Source of the DNA: Meiothermus sp.
Lineage (GTDB): Bacteria > Deinococcota > Deinococci > Deinococcales > Thermaceae
DNA length: 64,000 bases
Direction of reading: 5' to 3'
Assembly (NCBI RefSeq): GCF_026004075.1
Contig: NZ_BPIK01000001.1
Location: 722,041 to 786,040, forward strand
Shown: positions 37,541-46,729 of the stretch, in pieces
Numbering within the stretch: the first letter of the stretch is position 1
How the letters are laid out: every line of letters begins with the position of its first letter
Translations under genes and position numbers: made by a program
The notes under the pieces: generated by a model
Told to the model about the DNA's origin: nothing
Databases searched by the model: none
Seen by the model: only the letters and a program-made list of their open reading frames with translations

Positions 37541-38692
37541 ATGTTGTTCGAACGCAGCCGCCTCGAGGCCCTCGAGGCCCAGAACCTTGCCCCCTATGCG
37601 GTTAAGTCGGGCCAGAGCCGGGGCCGCGAATACCCCGAGCCCGAGTCGCGCTACCGCACCCCCTTCCAGAAAGACCGCGACCGCGTCAACCACACCACTG
37701 CCTTCCGGCGCTTGCAGTACAAAACCCAGGTGTTTGTGAACTTCGAGGGGGACTACTACCGCACCCGCCTGACCCACACCCTCGAGGTGGCCCAGGTGGC
37801 CCGCTCCATCGCCCGCGCCCTGGGGCTGAACCCCGAACTCACCGAGACCATCGCCTTTGCCCACGACCTCGGGCATCCGCCCTTCGGGCACTCGGGCGAG
37901 GCGGTGCTGGACGGGCTGATGCAGGGGCACGGCGGCTTCGACCACAACAAGCAGTCCATGCGCATCGTGACCTACCTCGAGCAGCGCTACCCCGGCTTTC
38001 GCGGCCTGAACCTGTGCTGGGAGACCCGCGAGGGCATCGTCAAGCACGAGACCCGCTACGACCTGCCCGACGCCGAGGGCTACGAGCCCCACCTGCGCCC
38101 CAGCCTCGAGGCCCAGATCGTGAACCTGGCCGACGAGATCGCCTACAACGCCCACGACCTCGACGACGGCCTGCGCTCGGGACTCCTGGTGCCCGGCCAG
38201 CTTGGGGAGGTCGAGCTTCTGCGGGACTTGCTGGGGGAACTGGGTATGCACCCCGACCGCTTCGACGAGATGAGCCGCCGGATTTTCATCCGTGAGCTCT
38301 TAGGCCTGATCATCACCGACACCATCACCGCCACCCATGCCCTGCTCGAGCAGCACCGGATAGATAGCCTCGAGGCCGTCCGCCAGCACCCAGCCCCCCT
38401 GGCGGTTTACTCCGAGACCCTCACCCGGCAACTGGACGAACTGCGCGACTTCCTGTACGCCAACCTGTACCACCACTACTACGTGGTGCGACAGGTGGGC
38501 AAGTCGCGCTTCGTGCTGGAAAAGCTCTTCGAGGCCTACACCCAGGATCCCCGCATCCTGCCCCCCCATGTGCAGAAAGCCGCCGAGACCGAGGGCATCC
38601 ACCGCGCCGCCTGCGACTACATCGCCGGCATGACCGATCGCTTTGCTTTAGACGAGTACGCCCGGCTGTTTGAACCGGAGTTCCACCGCTGA
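37541..38692 (+). CDS. dgt: dGTP triphosphohydrolase / dNTPase (HD domain)
   Basis: Hydrolyses dGTP or other dNTPs to deoxynucleoside and triphosphate. 383 residues with the N-terminal RDRVNHTTAFRRLQYKTQVF segment of the family, the HD metal site H79, H108-D109 in AFAHDLGHPPFGHSGE, and the later Asp in NLADEIAYNAHDLDDGL. Similar enzymes from Thermus thermophilus are stimulated by mixtures of dNTPs; the same is possible here. The stop codon TGA is also the left flank of repeat copy D. Length is typical of the short bacterial Dgt type. Confidence 0.93.
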   Translation: MLFERSRLEALEAQNLAPYAVKSGQSRGREYPEPESRYRTPFQKDRDRVNHTTAFRRLQYKTQVFVNFEGDYYRTRLTHTLEVAQVARSIARALGLNPELTETIAFAHDLGHPPFGHSGEAVLDGLMQGHGGFDHNKQSMRIVTYLEQRYPGFRGLNLCWETREGIVKHETRYDLPDAEGYEPHLRPSLEAQIVNLADEIAYNAHDLDDGLRSGLLVPGQLGEVELLRDLLGELGMHPDRFDEMSRRIFIRELLGLIITDTITATHALLEQHRIDSLEAVRQHPAPLAVYSETLTRQLDELRDFLYANLYHHYYVVRQVGKSRFVLEKLFEAYTQDPRILPPHVQKAAETEGIHRAACDYIAGMTDRFALDEYARLFEPEFHR

Positions 38693-40168: not shown

Positions 40169-40196
40169 TCGACAACCCGGCCCGAGCCGGTATAAT
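40169..40196 (+). promoter_or_regulatory. mrp operon promoter
   Basis: TCGACA (40169-40174) and a perfect TATAAT (40191-40196) are 16 nt apart. Transcription should start near 40203, giving a leader of about 100 nt before mrpA. The inverted repeat GGCTCGG (40139-40145) / CCGAGCC (40182-40188) overlaps this promoter and could also terminate the upstream gene. CCGGTATAA at 40187-40195 is repeated inverted at 40285-40293. Confidence 0.6.
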
Positions 40197-40202
40197 GCGC
40201 CC

Positions 40203-40301
40203 TGGAAAACCAGAGCTGCCTGCGGGCAGCACTTATGGTGGAGACTGTCAAAGGTCTCTACCCTTTGTTATGGTGTGGGGGGTTTTATACCGGAGCAGTC
40301 T
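40203..40301 (+). ncRNA. Structured 5' leader of the mrp antiporter operon, candidate cis-regulatory RNA
   Basis: Three stems are visible in order: CTGG/CCAG around AAAA; GCTGCC/GGCAGC around TGCG (40215-40230); and GGTGGAGAC/GTCTCTACC around an 8-nt loop (40237-40262, one G-U pair). The phrase TTATGGTG occurs before stem 3 and again after it. A CGGAG ribosome binding site (40291-40295) lies inside the right arm TTATACCGG. Most genes here are leaderless, so a long structured leader stands out. I do not recognise it as a known riboswitch class. Confidence 0.45.
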
Positions 40302-42578
40302 ATGGTGGTCGCTAGCATCGTCGCTTTTCTAGGAGCTCTTACCGCACCCTGGCTCCACCGCTGGCTGGGCAACGCGGCGGGCTGGGTGCTGGCCCTGCTG
40401 CCGCTGGGTCTTGCAGTCTACTTTGCCAGCCTGCTGCCGAGCGTGGTGGAAGGCCAGACCCTCCGGCACAGCCTGGCCTGGGTGCCCAGCCTGGGGGTCA
40501 ATTTTTCCTTCTACCTGGATGGGCTTTCGCTCCTGTTCGCCCTGCTCATCACCGGCATCGGCGCCTTTATTGTGATCTACTCGGGCGGCTACCTAAAGGG
40601 CCACCCCGACCTGGGCCGGTTCTACCTGGTCATCCTGCTCTTCATGGCCTCCATGCTGGGGCTGGTACTGGCCGACAACATCGTGACCCTGTTTGTGATG
40701 TGGGAGCTGACCAGCATCACCTCGTACCTGCTGATTGGCTTCAACCATAGCGAGTTCAGGTCGCGCCGGGCCGCCACCCAGGCTTTGCTGGTAACGGCGG
40801 GTGGGGGGCTGGCCCTGCTGGCCGGGCTGATTCTGTTGGCCCTCATGGGCGGCTCGCTGGAGATTTCCGAGCTGCTGGGCCAGGGCCAGGTACTGCGCGA
40901 GCATCCGCTCTATCTGCCCGCCCTCATCCTGGTGCTTCTGGGAGCCTTTACCAAGTCGGCGCAGTTTCCCTTTCACTTCTGGCTGCCCAACGCCATGGAA
41001 GCCCCCACCCCGGTCTCGGCCTACCTGCACTCGGCCACCATGGTCAAGGCCGGGGTCTACCTGCTGGCCCGGCTGCAGCCGGCCCTGGGCGGCACCGAGG
41101 TCTGGAGCAGTGCCCTGATGGTCTTTGGGCTGGCTACCCTGCTCACCGGGGCCACCCTCACCTTCCGCCACACCGACCTCAAGCGCCTGCTGGCCTACTC
41201 CACGGTGGCCGCGCTGGGGGCGCTGGTCTTCCTGATCGGGCTGGTGCCCCTCACCGACTACTACGCGGCGATGGGCTTTGCTACCTTTCTGCTGGCCCAC
41301 TCGCTCTACAAGGGTGGGCTCTTTATGGCGGCGGGCGCGGTGGATCACGAGGCCGGCACCCGCGACATCACCCAGCTTGGGGGCCTTTTCCGGGTGATGC
41401 CCCTCACCGGGGTGGCGGTGGTGCTGGCCGCGCTTTCGCTGGCCGGGCTGCCGCCGGTGCTGGGCTTTATCGGCAAGGAAGTGCTCTATGTGGCCGCGCT
41501 GCAGGCGGCCCCGGCCTGGATGGTGGGGCTGGCGGTGCTGGGCTTTGCCGCTGGGGCCATGCTGGCGCTGCTGCTGGTGGTGCCTTTCTTCCGGGGCCAG
41601 CCGCCCCAGGCGGTACACGAGGGGCCGCCCAGCCTGTGGCTGGGGCCCCTGGTGCTGGCGGGGTTGGGGCTCTTGCTGGGCCTGTTTCCGGGGCTCTATA
41701 ACCCCCTGGCCGATGTGGTGGCCAGCGCGGTCAAGGGGAAGGCCGTGGCCTACCACCTGAAGCTCTGGCCCGGCTTTAATCTGGCCTTGCTCCTGAGCCT
41801 CCTGACGGTGCTGCTGGGGGTGGGGCTTTACTTCCTCTACCCGCGCTTGCAGGCCTGGATGGCGCAGGAACCCATCCCTGGCCCGGAAAACACCTATGTG
41901 GCCCTCCTGCGCGGGCTGATGCGGCTGGCGGCAGGGGTCGAGCGCCTGTTGCAGAGCGGTTCGCTGCGGGCTTACCTGGTCTGGACGTTTGGGGGGCTGG
42001 TGGGGCTGGTGGGGCTGGCCCTCTTTCGCAGCGGCGTGCTGCTCTGGCCGGCGGGGGCCTCGAGCCCCAAACTCGAGCAGGTGCTGCTGCTGGCCCTGAT
42101 GCTCCTGGGGGCTATCGGGGCGCTGCGGCTGCGCTCGCACCTGGCGATGGTGGTGGTGCTGGGTATTGTAGGGGCGGGGGTGGCCCTGGTCTTTTTGCTG
42201 CAGAACGCCCCCGACCTCTCGATTACCCAGTTCCTGGTCGAAACCCTGACCGCCATCCTGATCGCCCTGGTGCTGCTGCAGATTCGCGACATCGGGTCGG
42301 TGCCCAGTGGGCGGTGGTTGGATAAAGCGGTGGCCCTGGGCTTTGGTGGGCTGGTGACCCTCTTGATGCTGGGAATGCTGGCCCAACCCATGGAACTGCA
42401 CCTGAGCCAGTTTTTCGCCCAGAAAAGCCTGCCTGAAGGCTTCGGGCGCAACATCGTGAACGTGATTCTGGTAGATTTCCGCGGCCTGGACACCTTCGGC
42501 GAGATTACCGTGGTGGGGCTGGCCGGGCTGGGGGTCTGGGCTCTTTTGAAACGCCGGCAGCGGGAGGAGCGGCCATGA
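40302..42578 (+). CDS. mrpA: Multisubunit Na+/H+ antiporter subunit MrpA (with MbhE-like C-terminus)
   Basis: 758 residues from the ATG at 40302 (CGGAG 6 nt upstream); longer frames upstream run through the leader. The N-terminal ~500 residues are a NuoL-like proton channel with the conserved Glu in [15 protein letters not shown], the lysine of [20 protein letters not shown] and SHSLYKGG-type helix ([21 protein letters not shown]). The last ~200 residues add the DUF4040/MbhE-like segment ([19 protein letters not shown] and [19 protein letters not shown]) typical of MrpA. It is the largest subunit of the seven-part complex that exchanges cytoplasmic Na+ for external H+. It overlaps mrpB by 4 bp. 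Confidence 0.93.
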
Positions 42579-42997
42579 ACACCCTGATTCTCAAGACGAC
42601 CTCGAGGTTCCTCTTCACCCTTCTGCTTCTGCTCTCGGTCTTTTTGCTCCTGCGCGGCCACAACGAGCCGGGCGGGGGCTTTATCGGGGCCCTGGTGGCG
42701 GTGGGGGCCTACGCGCTGTTTGCCCTGGCGCATGGGCTGGCCGCGGCCCGTAAACTCCTGCCCCTCGCCCCCTTGCGCCTGGTGGGGTGGGGCCTGCTGG
42801 TAGCCCTTCTGAGCGCCCTGCCGGCCTTGCTTTTGGGCCAGCCCTTCATGACCGGGCAGTGGTTCAGCCTGCTGGGCGTGAAGGTGGGCACCCCGGTCAT
42901 CTTCGACATCGGGGTCTACCTGACCGTGTTCGGGGCGCTGCTCTCGGCTATTTTTGGGCTCGAGGAGGCCGCGCACCATCCTTCGGAGGGCGCCTGA
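42575..42997 (+). CDS. mrpB: Na+/H+ antiporter subunit MrpB
   Basis: 140 residues, four TM helices, with the family phrases [16 protein letters not shown] and [18 protein letters not shown]. MrpB packs against the C-terminal part of MrpA in the complex. The start overlaps mrpA (ATGA) and the stop overlaps the mrpC start by one base (TGATG), so the whole set is translationally coupled. Confidence 0.93.
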
Positions 42998-43395
42998 TGG
43001 AAATCCTGCTCTCGTTTTTGGTGGGGGGCCTGGCCGCGGTAGGGGTTTATCTGATGCTCCGGCCCCACCTGATTCAGTTTCTGATTGGTTTTCTGGTGCT
43101 GGGCAACGCCGCCAACCTGCTGATCTTTACCGCAGGCCGTCTGGGCAGCCAGTTCCCGCCCCTGGTGCAGCCCGGCGGCGCAGTGCTGGAGCCCTACGCC
43201 AACCCCCTGCCCCAGGCCCTGATCCTCACCGCCATCGTGATTGGCTTTGCCCTGGCGGCGTTTGGCATCGTGCTCTTCTACCGGGCCCAGCAGGCCCTGG
43301 GCACCCTGAACGCCGAGGCCATCCTCGAGGTGCCCGAACCGGCCCCGGCCCCCTCGCCGGTGGACGAGGTGCCCGCAGAGGGGGTGCGCCGATGA
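42997..43395 (+). CDS. mrpC: Na+/H+ antiporter subunit MrpC (NuoK-like)
   Basis: 132 residues with three TM helices and the NuoK-like pattern GVYLMLRPHLIQFLIGFLVLGNAANLLIF, followed by LPQALILTAIVIGFALAAFGIVL. Residues 105-132 are a Pro/Glu-rich tail. Homologous to the K-type subunit of complex I. The start ATG shares a base with the mrpB stop; the end overlaps mrpD by 4 bp. Confidence 0.93.
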   Translation: MEILLSFLVGGLAAVGVYLMLRPHLIQFLIGFLVLGNAANLLIFTAGRLGSQFPPLVQPGGAVLEPYANPLPQALILTAIVIGFALAAFGIVLFYRAQQALGTLNAEAILEVPEPAPAPSPVDEVPAEGVRR

Positions 43396-44873
43396 GCTGG
43401 CTGCTGGTGCTGCCCCTGCTGATTCCGCTCACCACCGGCATCCTGTGCCTGGTGCTGCCGGGCCGCACCGCCCAGCGGGTGCTGGGCCTGGCGGGGGCCC
43501 TGGGCCTGCTGGCCGCGGGCCTGGCCCTGCTGGCCCAGGTTCAGCGCCTGGGCATTCAGGCCGTGCAGATAGGCAACTGGCCGGCCCCCTTTGGCATCAC
43601 CTTTGTGGCCGACCACCTCTCGGCCCTGATGGTGCTGGTCACTGGGGTGGTAGCGGTGGCGGTGGCCCTTTTTGCCCTGGCCGAAAACGACCAGGCGCGC
43701 GAGGGTCTGGGCTACTACGCCCTGGGCCATCTGTTGCTGTTTGGGGTGAACGGGGCCTTCCTGACCGGCGACCTGTTCAACCTGTACGTCTGGTTCGAGG
43801 TGCTTTTGCTGGCCTCCTTTGTGCTGATGATTCTGGGGGGCAGCAAGGCCCAGCTCGCGGGCGGGGTCAAGTACTTCGCAGTCTCGCTGCTGTCCTCGAT
43901 CCTCTTCCTGGTGGCGGTGGGCCTGCTGTACGGGGCGACCGGAGCCCTGAACATGGCCGACCTGGCCCTCCGGGTGGAAAAGGTTCATCCGGGGCTGCTC
44001 ACGGCTTTGTCCATGCTGTTTCTGGTGGCGTTTGGGCTTAAGGCCGCGGTTTTTCCTTTCTTCTTCTGGCTGCCGGCCTCCTATCCGGCCCCTCCCGCCA
44101 TGATCTCGGCCCTCTTTGCCGGGCTTCTGACCAAGGTGGGGGTGTACGCCCTGATCCGGGTCTTCACCCTGCTCTTTACCCACGACACCGGGTTTACCCA
44201 TAGCCTGATCCTCTGGATTGCCGGTTTTACCTTACTCCTGGGGGTGCTGATGGCGCTGGCCCAGGGGGAACTCAGGCGGCTGTTGTCGTTCCAGTTGGTG
44301 AGCCACATCGGCTACATGCTGATGGGCCTGGGCATCCTGACCCCGCTGGCCCTGGCCGGCTCGGTGTTTTATGCCCTCAACCACATGATTGTGATTGCCG
44401 CGCTCTTTTTGCTGGCGGGCCTCTTACAGCGCTTGCAGGGCACCACGGTGCTGGTGCGGATGGGCGGGCTGTACGGGCCTTATCCCTGGCTGGCGATCCT
44501 GTTTTTGCTGCCGGCCTTCTCGCTGGCCGGACTGCCGCCTTTTTCGGGCTTCTGGGCCAAATACACGCTGGTGGCAGCCGGGTTGCAGGCCGGACAGTAC
44601 GGAATTGTGGCGGTGGCCCTGCTGGTGGGCCTGCTGACGCTGCTCTCGATGGGGCTGGTCTTCGCCGAGGTGTTTTGGAAGAAGGCTCCAGGGGAAGTCA
44701 GGGCGGCCCCCGGGGGCCTGGGCGGGCTGGCGCTGCCGGTGGGCCTGCTAGCAGTTCTGACGCTGGGGATTGGGCTCTGGGCCGAGCCGCTCTTGAGCCT
44801 CTCGCAGGCCGCCGCGCGGGAGCTGCTCGAGCCATCCGGGTATATCCAGGCGGTGCTGGGGGTGAGCCGATGA
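43392..44873 (+). CDS. mrpD: Na+/H+ antiporter subunit MrpD (NuoN/M-like)
   Basis: 493 residues, about fourteen TM helices, of the proton-conducting Nqo13/14 family. Charged residues expected in the channel are visible: the Glu of LFNLYVWFEVLLLASF, the Lys of FGLKAAVFPFFFWLP and the Lys of FSGFWAKYTLVAAGLQ. I start it at the ATG at 43392, inside the end of mrpC. It ends in a 4-bp overlap with mrpE. With MrpA it forms the pair of antiporter-like channels of the complex. Confidence 0.93.
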   Translation: MSWLLVLPLLIPLTTGILCLVLPGRTAQRVLGLAGALGLLAAGLALLAQVQRLGIQAVQIGNWPAPFGITFVADHLSALMVLVTGVVAVAVALFALAENDQAREGLGYYALGHLLLFGVNGAFLTGDLFNLYVWFEVLLLASFVLMILGGSKAQLAGGVKYFAVSLLSSILFLVAVGLLYGATGALNMADLALRVEKVHPGLLTALSMLFLVAFGLKAAVFPFFFWLPASYPAPPAMISALFAGLLTKVGVYALIRVFTLLFTHDTGFTHSLILWIAGFTLLLGVLMALAQGELRRLLSFQLVSHIGYMLMGLGILTPLALAGSVFYALNHMIVIAALFLLAGLLQRLQGTTVLVRMGGLYGPYPWLAILFLLPAFSLAGLPPFSGFWAKYTLVAAGLQAGQYGIVAVALLVGLLTLLSMGLVFAEVFWKKAPGEVRAAPGGLGGLALPVGLLAVLTLGIGLWAEPLLSLSQAAARELLEPSGYIQAVLGVSR

Positions 44874-45349
44874 GGGCCTTTGTGTACAACGTGGTGCTGA
44901 CCATCTTCTGGATGGCCGTGACCGAAGCCTTTACCCTCGAGAACTTTCTGGTGGGCTTTGTCATCTGCTTCCTGATTTTGCTGCTGGCCCGCCCGCTTTT
45001 CGATGCCCCCTCGAGGCGCTACTTCACCCTGGCCTGGAAGCTGCCCCGCTTCGTGCTCCTGATGCTGTGGGAGATCGTGCTCTCGAGCCTGCGGGTGGCC
45101 CAGGCGGTGCTCTCGCCCCGGATGCCCATCAAACCCGGCATTATCGCCTACCCGCTGGAGGTCAGGAGTGATCTCGAGATCACTCTGCTGGCCAACCTGA
45201 TCACCCTCACACCGGGCACCCTAAGCCTGGACGTCTCCTCCGACCGTAAGGTGCTCTATGTGCACGGGATGTTTGTGGACGACCCACAAAAGGTGATCGA
45301 GTCTACCCACGAAAGCCTGGAAAAAGCCGTACTGGAGGTGACCCGATGA
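44870..45349 (+). CDS. mrpE: Na+/H+ antiporter subunit MrpE
   Basis: 159 residues: two N-terminal TM helices (about 4-22, 25-45), one at about 55-75, and a cytoplasmic C-terminal domain with [19 protein letters not shown], the MrpE signature. It is required for stable assembly of the complex in characterised bacteria. Overlaps of 4 bp on both sides keep it within the coupled operon. Confidence 0.92.
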
Positions 45350-45612
45350 GTTTTCTGGAGGTCATGCTGCTGGCCCTGCTGCTAACCCTGCCCTTTGCGC
45401 TGTACCGCCTGGTGAAGGGGCCAACCCTGCCCGACCGGGTGGTGGGCCTCGACCTGATCACCACGGTCTCGGTGGCGCTGGCTGCACTGTATGCCCTGGT
45501 GAGCGGCCAGACTGCTTTCTTGGATGTGGCCATTGCGCTGGCTCTGTTTGCCTTTTTAGCTACGCTAGGGCTGGCCCGTTACATCGAGTACCGGGGTCAC
45601 AAGGGGGACTGA
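45346..45612 (+). CDS. mrpF: Na+/H+ antiporter subunit MrpF
   Basis: 88 residues, three TM helices, with the family core LYRLVKGPTLPDRVVGLDLITT and DVAIALALFAFLATLGLARYIE. The conserved Asp of LPDRVVGLD is thought to take part in ion translocation. It overlaps mrpE by 4 bp and is followed by mrpG after a single base. Confidence 0.92.
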   Translation: MSFLEVMLLALLLTLPFALYRLVKGPTLPDRVVGLDLITTVSVALAALYALVSGQTAFLDVAIALALFAFLATLGLARYIEYRGHKGD

Positions 45613-45613
45613 G

Positions 45614-46003
45614 ATGCTTGAATGGCTGGTGTATATCCTGGTGCTGGGTGGGGTGTTTTTTCTGTTAATTGCGGCCATCGGGGTGGTGCGGATGCCCGAT
45701 TTGTACAACCGCATGCACGCCACCTCCAAGGCCGGTACCCTGGGGGTGGGCCTGATTCTGGTAGCGGTGGCGGTGTTTTATCAGGAGCTCTCGGTGGCGG
45801 CCCGTGCGCTTTCGGCCCTGGCCTTTATTGTCCTGACCGCGCCGGTAGCCGCCCACGCCCTGGGCCGCGCAGCCTACCTCTCGGGTGTAAAGCCCTGCGA
45901 AGACACCTACATAGACGAGCTGGCCGGGCACTACCAGGCCAATCACAGGCTCGAGTCGGTGGAGAAAACCCCACCGGCCCACAAGCCGGAGTCAAACCCC
46001 TAA
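45614..46003 (+). CDS. mrpG: Na+/H+ antiporter subunit MrpG
   Basis: 129 residues, three TM helices (about 4-24, 38-58, 62-85), with GVVRMPDLYNRMHATSKAGTLG, which is diagnostic for MrpG/PhaG. A soluble tail of about 35 residues follows. It closes the ABCDEFG set, so all seven subunits are present in canonical order. Its last 12 bp overlap the convergent esterase gene. Confidence 0.92.
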   Translation: MLEWLVYILVLGGVFFLLIAAIGVVRMPDLYNRMHATSKAGTLGVGLILVAVAVFYQELSVAARALSALAFIVLTAPVAAHALGRAAYLSGVKPCEDTYIDELAGHYQANHRLESVEKTPPAHKPESNP

Positions 46004-46729
46004 GCGCTCGAGCTCATACGGCAGCATTTTCTGCCACCAGGGCCAGTCGTGGTCTACGTCGTGGCCCCAGTAGTCGAAGGTAGCGTATACGCCCTTCTGG
46101 TGGAGCAGTTCCTGCATCTCGCGGGTGTCGCGGATGCACTCTTCCTCCCAGCGCCCCTGGCCCACCGCAAACACAATCTTGTTGCGCCGGTAGGCGTTTA
46201 GCTTGGCCTCGTCGGTCAGGTTGCGCAGGTACCACAGCGGTGAGTTGAAGTAGGCATCCATACCGCCCTCGTTCCCCACGAAGCCCCCCACCTGGTACAG
46301 TCCCGACAGGGCAATCAGGCCATCGAAGACCTCGGGGTATTTGAAGAAGAAGTTGGCCGCGTGGAAGGCCCCCATGCTGCACCCCGTGACCCATAGGGTG
46401 GGCAGGCCGGTGTTTTTCTGCACAAAGGGCACCACCTCCTGCATGATGTAGGCGTCGTAGTCGTTGTGGCGGCGGGCCCGCGCGGCAGGGGGGATGCTCT
46501 GGTTGGTCCAGCTCTGCCAGTCAATGCCGTCCACGCAAAAAAACTTGACCCGCCCCGCCTCGATCATGGGGGCCAGGGCCTGGGCCATGCCGGCGTGGCC
46601 TTCCCAATCGTACCAGCGCCCGTTCTGGGCCGGAAATACCATCACCGGCTGGCCGTAGTGGCCGTACAGCTTGAGCTCCATCTCCTGCCCCAGGGCCGGG
46701 CTATACCATTTGTGATACTCGGTGTACAC
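45992..46729 (-). CDS. Alpha/beta-hydrolase esterase (putative esterase family)
   Basis: 245 residues. Nucleophile elbow GCSMG with S118, and a late GHDVDHDWPWW segment that supplies the catalytic His; this is the esterase D / antigen-85-like branch. No signal peptide, so the enzyme is cytoplasmic. Start is a GTG with GAGGGGGTG just upstream. It begins 12 bp after the ATP-grasp gene ends, so the two form a short operon and may act on the same metabolite, one forming an amide or ester-like bond and the other hydrolysing. The substrate is unknown. Confidence 0.85.
   Translation of the reverse strand: MYTEYHKWYSPALGQEMELKLYGHYGQPVMVFPAQNGRWYDWEGHAGMAQALAPMIEAGRVKFFCVDGIDWQSWTNQSIPPAARARRHNDYDAYIMQEVVPFVQKNTGLPTLWVTGCSMGAFHAANFFFKYPEVFDGLIALSGLYQVGGFVGNEGGMDAYFNSPLWYLRNLTDEAKLNAYRRNKIVFAVGQGRWEEECIRDTREMQELLHQKGVYATFDYWGHDVDHDWPWWQKMLPYELERLGV

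Follow-up and report, generated by a model that had tools for sequence, protein, structure and literature searches.

The 64,000-nucleotide stretch of Meiothermus DNA analysed here (the window), which comes from a genome assembled in two contigs, contains seven mrp genes preceded by a leader of about 100 nt. The mrpD and mrpG genes were named by NCBIfam, and mrpB, mrpC, mrpE and mrpF were assigned by eye from gene order. The features of the locus are:

40169–40196, + strand, sigma-70-type promoter TCGACA-16-TATAAT (pattern match)
40215–40230, + strand, P1 hairpin GCUGCC-UGCG-GGCAGC (sequence and pairs), found in 7/7 short mrpA leaders
40231–40236, + strand, 6-nt spacer ACUUAU, at the place where long-form relatives have an H-type pseudoknot (S1/S2)
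40237–40262, + strand, P3 hairpin GGUGGAGACU-GUCAAA-GGUCUCUACC, conserved core, terminator-like
40263–40269, + strand, short U-tract CUUUGUU after P3, with 5 U among the first 8 nt
40292–40295, + strand, Shine-Dalgarno sequence GGAG of mrpA, directly 3' of TTATACC
40302–42578, + strand, mrpA, subunit A of the Mrp (CPA3) Na+/H+ antiporter (ORF, NCBIfam)
42575–46003, + strand, mrpB-mrpG block, consisting of the following six ORFs
42575–42997, + strand, mrpB
42997–43395, + strand, mrpC
43392–44873, + strand, mrpD
44870–45349, + strand, mrpE
45346–45612, + strand, mrpF
45614–46003, + strand, mrpG

The promoter, described as strong in a preliminary description of this DNA, gives 11 of 12 matches to the sigma-70-type pattern (-10 box at 40191–40196) and is the sole match within 501 bp, with 0.0 expected. 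Transcription probably starts near 40203, and the leader extends from the promoter to the ATG at 40302. The three stems described earlier are present in its computed fold. The folding energy of the window leader is unremarkable (z -1.99, with 8 of 200 shuffles equally stable), and since it is only moderately stabler than shuffled sequences, its interest rests on comparison with relatives. That comparison separated the conserved parts from the incidental ones. The repeated TTATGGTG does occur twice in the window (40233 and 40268), but it is single in the relatives inspected by eye, and the GGAG at 40292–40295 indeed follows TTATACC, but the stem proposed around this ribosome binding site is not kept in two relatives (G008 and G015, by eye). 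Neither belongs to the conserved leader, which by sequence comparison consists of P1 and P3, joined in relatives by a pseudoknot. The window copy belongs to a short form that has no pseudoknot: P1 is followed by the 6-nt spacer and then by P3, about 40 nt upstream of the mrpA start codon.

MrpA was searched in 50 genomes of the family, and the regions upstream of the matches were then read. A DNA search with the window leader returned mrpA leaders and also the same hairpin directly 5' of nhaA in two genomes (G004 and G006) without a close MrpA. Three covariance models, the E-values of which are rough, were used to extend these findings: R1 (the P3 hairpin, 11 sequences), R2 (the long form) and R3 (an 11-row alignment, A8, without any short form), with R3 searched in the same 111 Deinococcota genomes as R1. 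At E ≤ 0.01, R1 matched 20 of the 111 genomes, in 13 mrpA leaders, six nhaA leaders and one terminator (G065); by genus, it matched 15/18 Meiothermus genomes, 2/2 of genus g2, 2/2 of Calidithermus (g3), 0/27 of g4 (probably Thermus) and 0/1 of g5. R2, built without leaders from f3 (a further family of the order), gave weak matches there (G054, E 0.255; G055, E 0.865), 12–13 nt upstream of NhaA matches, and the nhaA leader of G057 fits R2 too (34.8 bits). All 13 places with more than 58 bits under R3 are mrpA or nhaA leaders. The window leader reached 40.4 bits (E 1.2e-9) with this model, in which short forms are absent, and the match is therefore more than chance. Conservation and covariation in related genomes, on which the preliminary description had staked its reading, thus came out in favour of the leader, which by these comparisons is a real conserved element.

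Several R3 matches, none of them among the sequences of the model, lie before other kinds of genes. The G050 element (47.7 bits) is a full long form (P1 AGGC/GCCU, S2 CCCAC/GUGGG, U7 after P3) and precedes an ABC-2 type exporter; this ATPase and permease pair would fit the theme if it were a NatAB-like Na+ exporter. A reduced form in G051 (31.3 bits) precedes a CPA1 Na+/H+ exchanger (PF00999). The G056 match (24.3 bits, E 4.0e-4) is within noise and was accepted by location only, its P3 core lying just before the gene of a NapA-like CPA2 antiporter; the best solved relatives of this protein are the Na+/H+ antiporters 4bwz and 5bz3, which we take to be NapA. The G012 match (E 0.0043) is likewise within noise. 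At E ≤ 2, R3 gave matches in 102 of the 111 genomes, mostly noise. A second match in G006 (contig C20, 28.8 bits) lies in or beside a coding frame, eight other weak matches, on inspection, either overlap reading frames or have no features of a leader, and five further ones (L248-L252) are within reading frames. With one element accepted per genome, the total is 25 of 111 Deinococcota genomes: 13 mrpA leaders (seven short, five long and one with P3 only), nine nhaA leaders (eight long and one short), and one element each before CPA1, NapA-like and ABC exporter genes. Hence, an antiporter gene from one of four families follows 24 of the 25 elements and the ABC exporter follows one, an association with genes of a single physiological theme.

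In a wider scan of genome contigs, within and outside the phylum, a P3-core pattern returned 78 stretches, and rescoring with R1 left nine above 40 bits, from Meiothermus and Calidithermus only. Ten of the other 69 were examined and are terminators, coding or chance, and two more (L113 and L121) look coding on reading. A P3 with altered sequence would escape this pattern, and absence of the element outside Deinococcota is therefore not proven. Ordinary terminators located after genes can resemble P3, as in the R1 match G065:C23 and in a Herpetosiphon stretch (GGTGGAGGCTGTCAACAGCCTCCACC, L130), and P3 sequence alone is therefore not diagnostic.

The conserved core comprises P1, the P3 hairpin of 9–10 bp (40237–40262 in the window) and a short U-tract. 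In the long form (14 genomes), P1 and P3 are separated by an H-type pseudoknot; this form was found in the mrpA leaders of G007, G013, G014, G018 and G020, and in nhaA leaders including those of G001-G004 and G006. In Thermaceae, the long-form motif reads GGAG-n-S2-CUCC-nnnn-S2' (GGGG in G006), with S1 formed by GGAG/CUCC and S2 by five base pairs. Across eight distinct Thermaceae rows, 72/72 cells pair and two S2 pairs covary. The nhaA leaders of f3 retain the same architecture with new letters: P1 is CACC/GGUG, S1 is CGAG/CUCG, and S2 is CCAGC/GCUGG or CCAAC/GUUGG, followed by three bases, GG(U/C)GGAG and a P3 with a long stem and a run of U. In the A8 alignment (11 rows), 196/198 cells pair with six covarying pairs. 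Adding G050 gives 12 long-form rows with 214/216 base-pair cells formed, six covarying pairs and 20 both-side changes, compared to 38–50% pairing in slid controls. None of 500 shuffles reaches the covariation score of these rows, a result that cannot be read as a probability because relatedness remains. The pairing figure applies to long forms alone: G051 and G056, variants in which the fit to the pseudoknot is unclean, were left out, as were G020 (identical to G014 over the stretch) and G007 (one loop base from G018). The letters of P1 change wholly and still pair (GCUGC/GCAGC, CACC/GGUG, AGGC/GCCU), and the pseudoknot loops keep lengths of 1 and 4 nt. The pseudoknot is absent from eight short-form genomes, and the mrpA leader of G016, which has P3 only, is without P1 as well. 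By these alignments, a conserved structured domain with covariation lies in the 5' leader, upstream of four unrelated kinds of Na+/H+ antiporter, and the earlier view of a regulatory leader is supported.

P3 evolves differently. In 16 distinct Thermaceae leaders 143/144 of its cells pair, and changes occur almost only on the 3' side, mostly to G-U. Thus, the 5' strand GG(U/C)GGAG is nearly invariant and the 3' strand drifts via G-U exchange. The hairpin loop is nGnCAAn in Thermaceae and is not conserved outside this family. Since P3 also reads as an inverted repeat (GGAGAC-N8-GTCTCC) just downstream of the promoter, it might be a DNA operator for a transcription factor. We disfavour this explanation as very improbable, because the two half-sites are unequally conserved, with the 3' side drifting to G-U partners, and the interleaved S1 and S2 pairs covary. 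An invariant 5' strand opposite a drifting 3' strand points to RNA and to a second role for the 5' strand.

The terminator character of P3, judged from a G+C-rich stem and a U-tract, is clear in G054, G055, G057, G050 and G051 (f2/f3), with 6–7 U in 8 nt. It appears moderate in the window (5 of 8), with 5–6 U in 12 of the 15 Thermaceae leaders listed, and weak in genus g2, with a poor tract of 3–4 U; in Meiothermus, too, the U-tract is weak. A survey of gene-end terminators in the window and eight further stretches yielded 15, too few to define the local type. The distance from P3 to the start codon varies from about 20 nt in nhaA leaders to more than 120 nt in G050 and G051. Together with the U-tracts, this variable spacing suggests transcription attenuation as the best-fitting mode of action, better than masking of the ribosome binding site.

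An antiterminator pairing of GG(U/C)GGAG conserved across the nine leaders tried was not found. Pairing of S1' (CUCC) with the GGAG of P3 fails in f3, where S1' reads CUCG but the GGAG of P3 is unchanged (by eye), and pairing between the 5' strands of P1 and P3 forms in some leaders only. A pseudoknot between the loop CAA and a downstream UUUG is sterically unlikely, as 1–2 nt would have to span 9–10 bp, and an alternative hairpin CAAAGG/CCUUUG is confined to the clade of short mrpA leaders (by eye). The lack of a common antiterminator among these nine leaders would be expected if an RNA-binding antiterminator protein, and not the RNA itself, were the sensor of a conserved attenuator, with GG(U/C)GGAG and the Thermaceae loop nGnCAAn as possible protein contacts. 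A covarying pseudoknot with loops kept at 1 and 4 nt is instead typical of a folded aptamer, and we consider the protein sensor unlikely, though worth keeping in mind. Another explanation would be a leader responsive to pH or pausing, which adopts an alternative fold when transcription slows at alkaline pH, as exemplified by the E. coli alx leader. The additional role of Mrp and NhaA in pH homeostasis and the short distance from the promoter to P3 suit such a leader; the degree to which the P3 5' strand and the pseudoknot loops are conserved probably exceeds what a switch based on folding kinetics needs, and this explanation seems to us quite unlikely.

The distribution of pumps suggests that the leader has outlasted exchanges of the genes behind it. 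In 15 of the 18 Meiothermus genomes, the leader is found with mrp or with nhaA, never with both. In the 13 genomes with leader and mrpA, the NhaA search gave no match at E ≤ 1e-20, and in the two with leader and nhaA (G006 and G012) the MrpA matches are distant and only NuoL/MrpD-like. In three Meiothermus genomes (G010, G011 and G019) mrpA has no element; the G019 match is 44% identical and may be non-orthologous. The nhaA genes of g2 and G012 are preceded by a homologue of the window gene at 37541–38692 plus an aminotransferase gene, as is mrp in the window, and nhaA of M. granaticius adjoins ATP-grasp and esterase genes, both of which are present in the window beyond mrpG (the aminotransferase, ATP-grasp and esterase neighbours were recognised by eye). 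Judging by these shared neighbours, it seems that mrp and nhaA have taken each other's place at a single locus that retained its leader. The upstream neighbour of mrp differs in M. luteus. In g4, 16 genomes have an NhaA match; the element is absent from all 13 upstream regions read, in which promoter-like boxes are mostly near the start codon. The shared neighbours would also be compatible with a passively inherited leader, in which mrp and nhaA were swapped behind an old promoter and the element now acts mainly as a weak constitutive attenuator, especially in the short form of the window; the eight short-form genomes without a pseudoknot fit this as well. This explanation is improbable in our view, given that the element in other families is still found before nhaA, CPA1 or NapA-like genes, that in Calidithermus it accompanies nhaA in other surroundings, and that its P3 is under constraint.

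The mrpA gene of G010 (contig C15) has a leader of another kind, with a promoter, TTTGCTGTTTGTAGCAAGG and a hairpin around GGGGTCTTCGACC and without a P3 match; it may be a remnant or have no relation to the element.

Rfam scans of the window, the leader and its relatives gave nothing above chance, and targeted searches agreed with the earlier failure to match the leader to known Na+ or Li+ riboswitches. For the Li+-I riboswitch (nhaA-I motif, RF03057; cut-off 37 bits), none of 50 family genomes was above the cut-off, the weak matches listed were not at the element, and covariance scans of small element loci gave no match at E ≤ 10. For Li+-II (nhaA-II motif, RF03038; gathering score 70.4 bits), none of ten element-carrying genomes was above the threshold, with the best match at 23 bits and all matches elsewhere, and for Na+-I (DUF1646 motif, RF03071; cut-off 40.5 bits), none of 14 genomes was above and no match fell at the element. 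Two g4 genomes have sub-threshold RF03057 matches away from the element, nearly identical to each other (G027:C30:8643-8703, 29.4 bits; G042:C180:82-142, 28.8 bits).

Like the new element, Li+-I is located in leaders of nhaA and related cation transporters, and the accessible part of PMC9646797 describes it as activating expression with Li+; it differs as a 55-position two-hairpin motif with another conserved sequence, described in Proteobacteria. Li+-II also precedes nhaA, but its 84-position model does not match the Deinococcota element. Na+-I and Na+-II variants are ion-sensing leaders of Na+ transport genes as well, and some Na+-II examples have intrinsic terminators (PMC9646797, accessible part), but Na+-I has a P1/P2 architecture and is reported from Firmicutes, Proteobacteria, Acidobacteria and Verrucomicrobia among others (PMC9337991, accessible part). 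The resemblance of the downstream genes to those in PMC9646797 (accessible part) is what a divergent Li+-I, Li+-II or Na+-I riboswitch would explain; with no match of RF03057, RF03038 or RF03071 at the element and a different architecture, we regard this as extremely improbable. The accessible portions of the open-access literature on Na+/Li+ riboswitches, Meiothermus riboswitches and Deinococcus-Thermus, supplementary files aside, contain no such motif, and those of two discovery surveys make no mention of Thermus, Deinococcus or nhaA. The element may thus be an undescribed candidate class of ion-related cis-regulatory RNA.

Fluoride and preQ1 riboswitches likewise place an H-type pseudoknot close to the promoter and then a terminator; they differ from the element in gene context, and no Rfam match connects them. 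The sensing domain of the new element would comprise P1, in the long form the pseudoknot, and the strand GG(U/C)GGAG, which would double as the 5' half of the putative intrinsic terminator P3. When the antiporter is needed (high Na+ or Li+, alkaline pH), the sensing fold would hold this strand and keep P3 from forming, so that polymerase would continue into the mrp, nhaA, CPA1 or napA genes. Such an ON direction is that of known Li+ and Na+ riboswitches, according to the accessible parts of PMC9646797 and PMC9337991. The short form of the window has no pseudoknot and may sense in another way or to a lesser degree; that it senses at all is less certain than for the long form, and the strongest evidence comes from relatives.

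We regard the leader as a probable new RNA switch in the control of salt or pH. More specifically, we lean towards an undescribed Deinococcota cis-acting RNA that works as an ON switch for Na+/H+ antiporter genes through transcription attenuation. The ABC exporter, not an antiporter, behind the G050 element, the U-tracts that are weak in Meiothermus and poor in g2, and the three Meiothermus mrpA genes without the element speak against this reading. A bolder proposal, which we hold at somewhat less than even confidence, is a new class of alkali-ion riboswitch, most likely for Na+, with a compact pseudoknot aptamer that would bind the ion directly and share the 5' strand of the terminator behind it. 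The riboswitch would be a portable module kept while the pump was exchanged among four unrelated antiporter families, and would have been reduced to a pseudoknot-less short form in the clade of the window.

The RNA sensors of alkali ions known so far are few, and those who described the Na+ and Li+ riboswitches anticipate further ones (PMC9337991 and PMC9646797, accessible parts). With its covariation and four antiporter families, the element is a ready candidate for such a sensor in thermophiles and opens the sensing of Na+ or alkaline stress in Deinococcota to direct testing in vitro. It also presents a case of a regulator retained through what seems to have been an exchange between a single-gene pump and a seven-gene complex. 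At the other end of the mrp genes in the window, an esterase-like gene (45992–46729, − strand) converges on mrpG and overlaps its end (46003) by about 12 nt.
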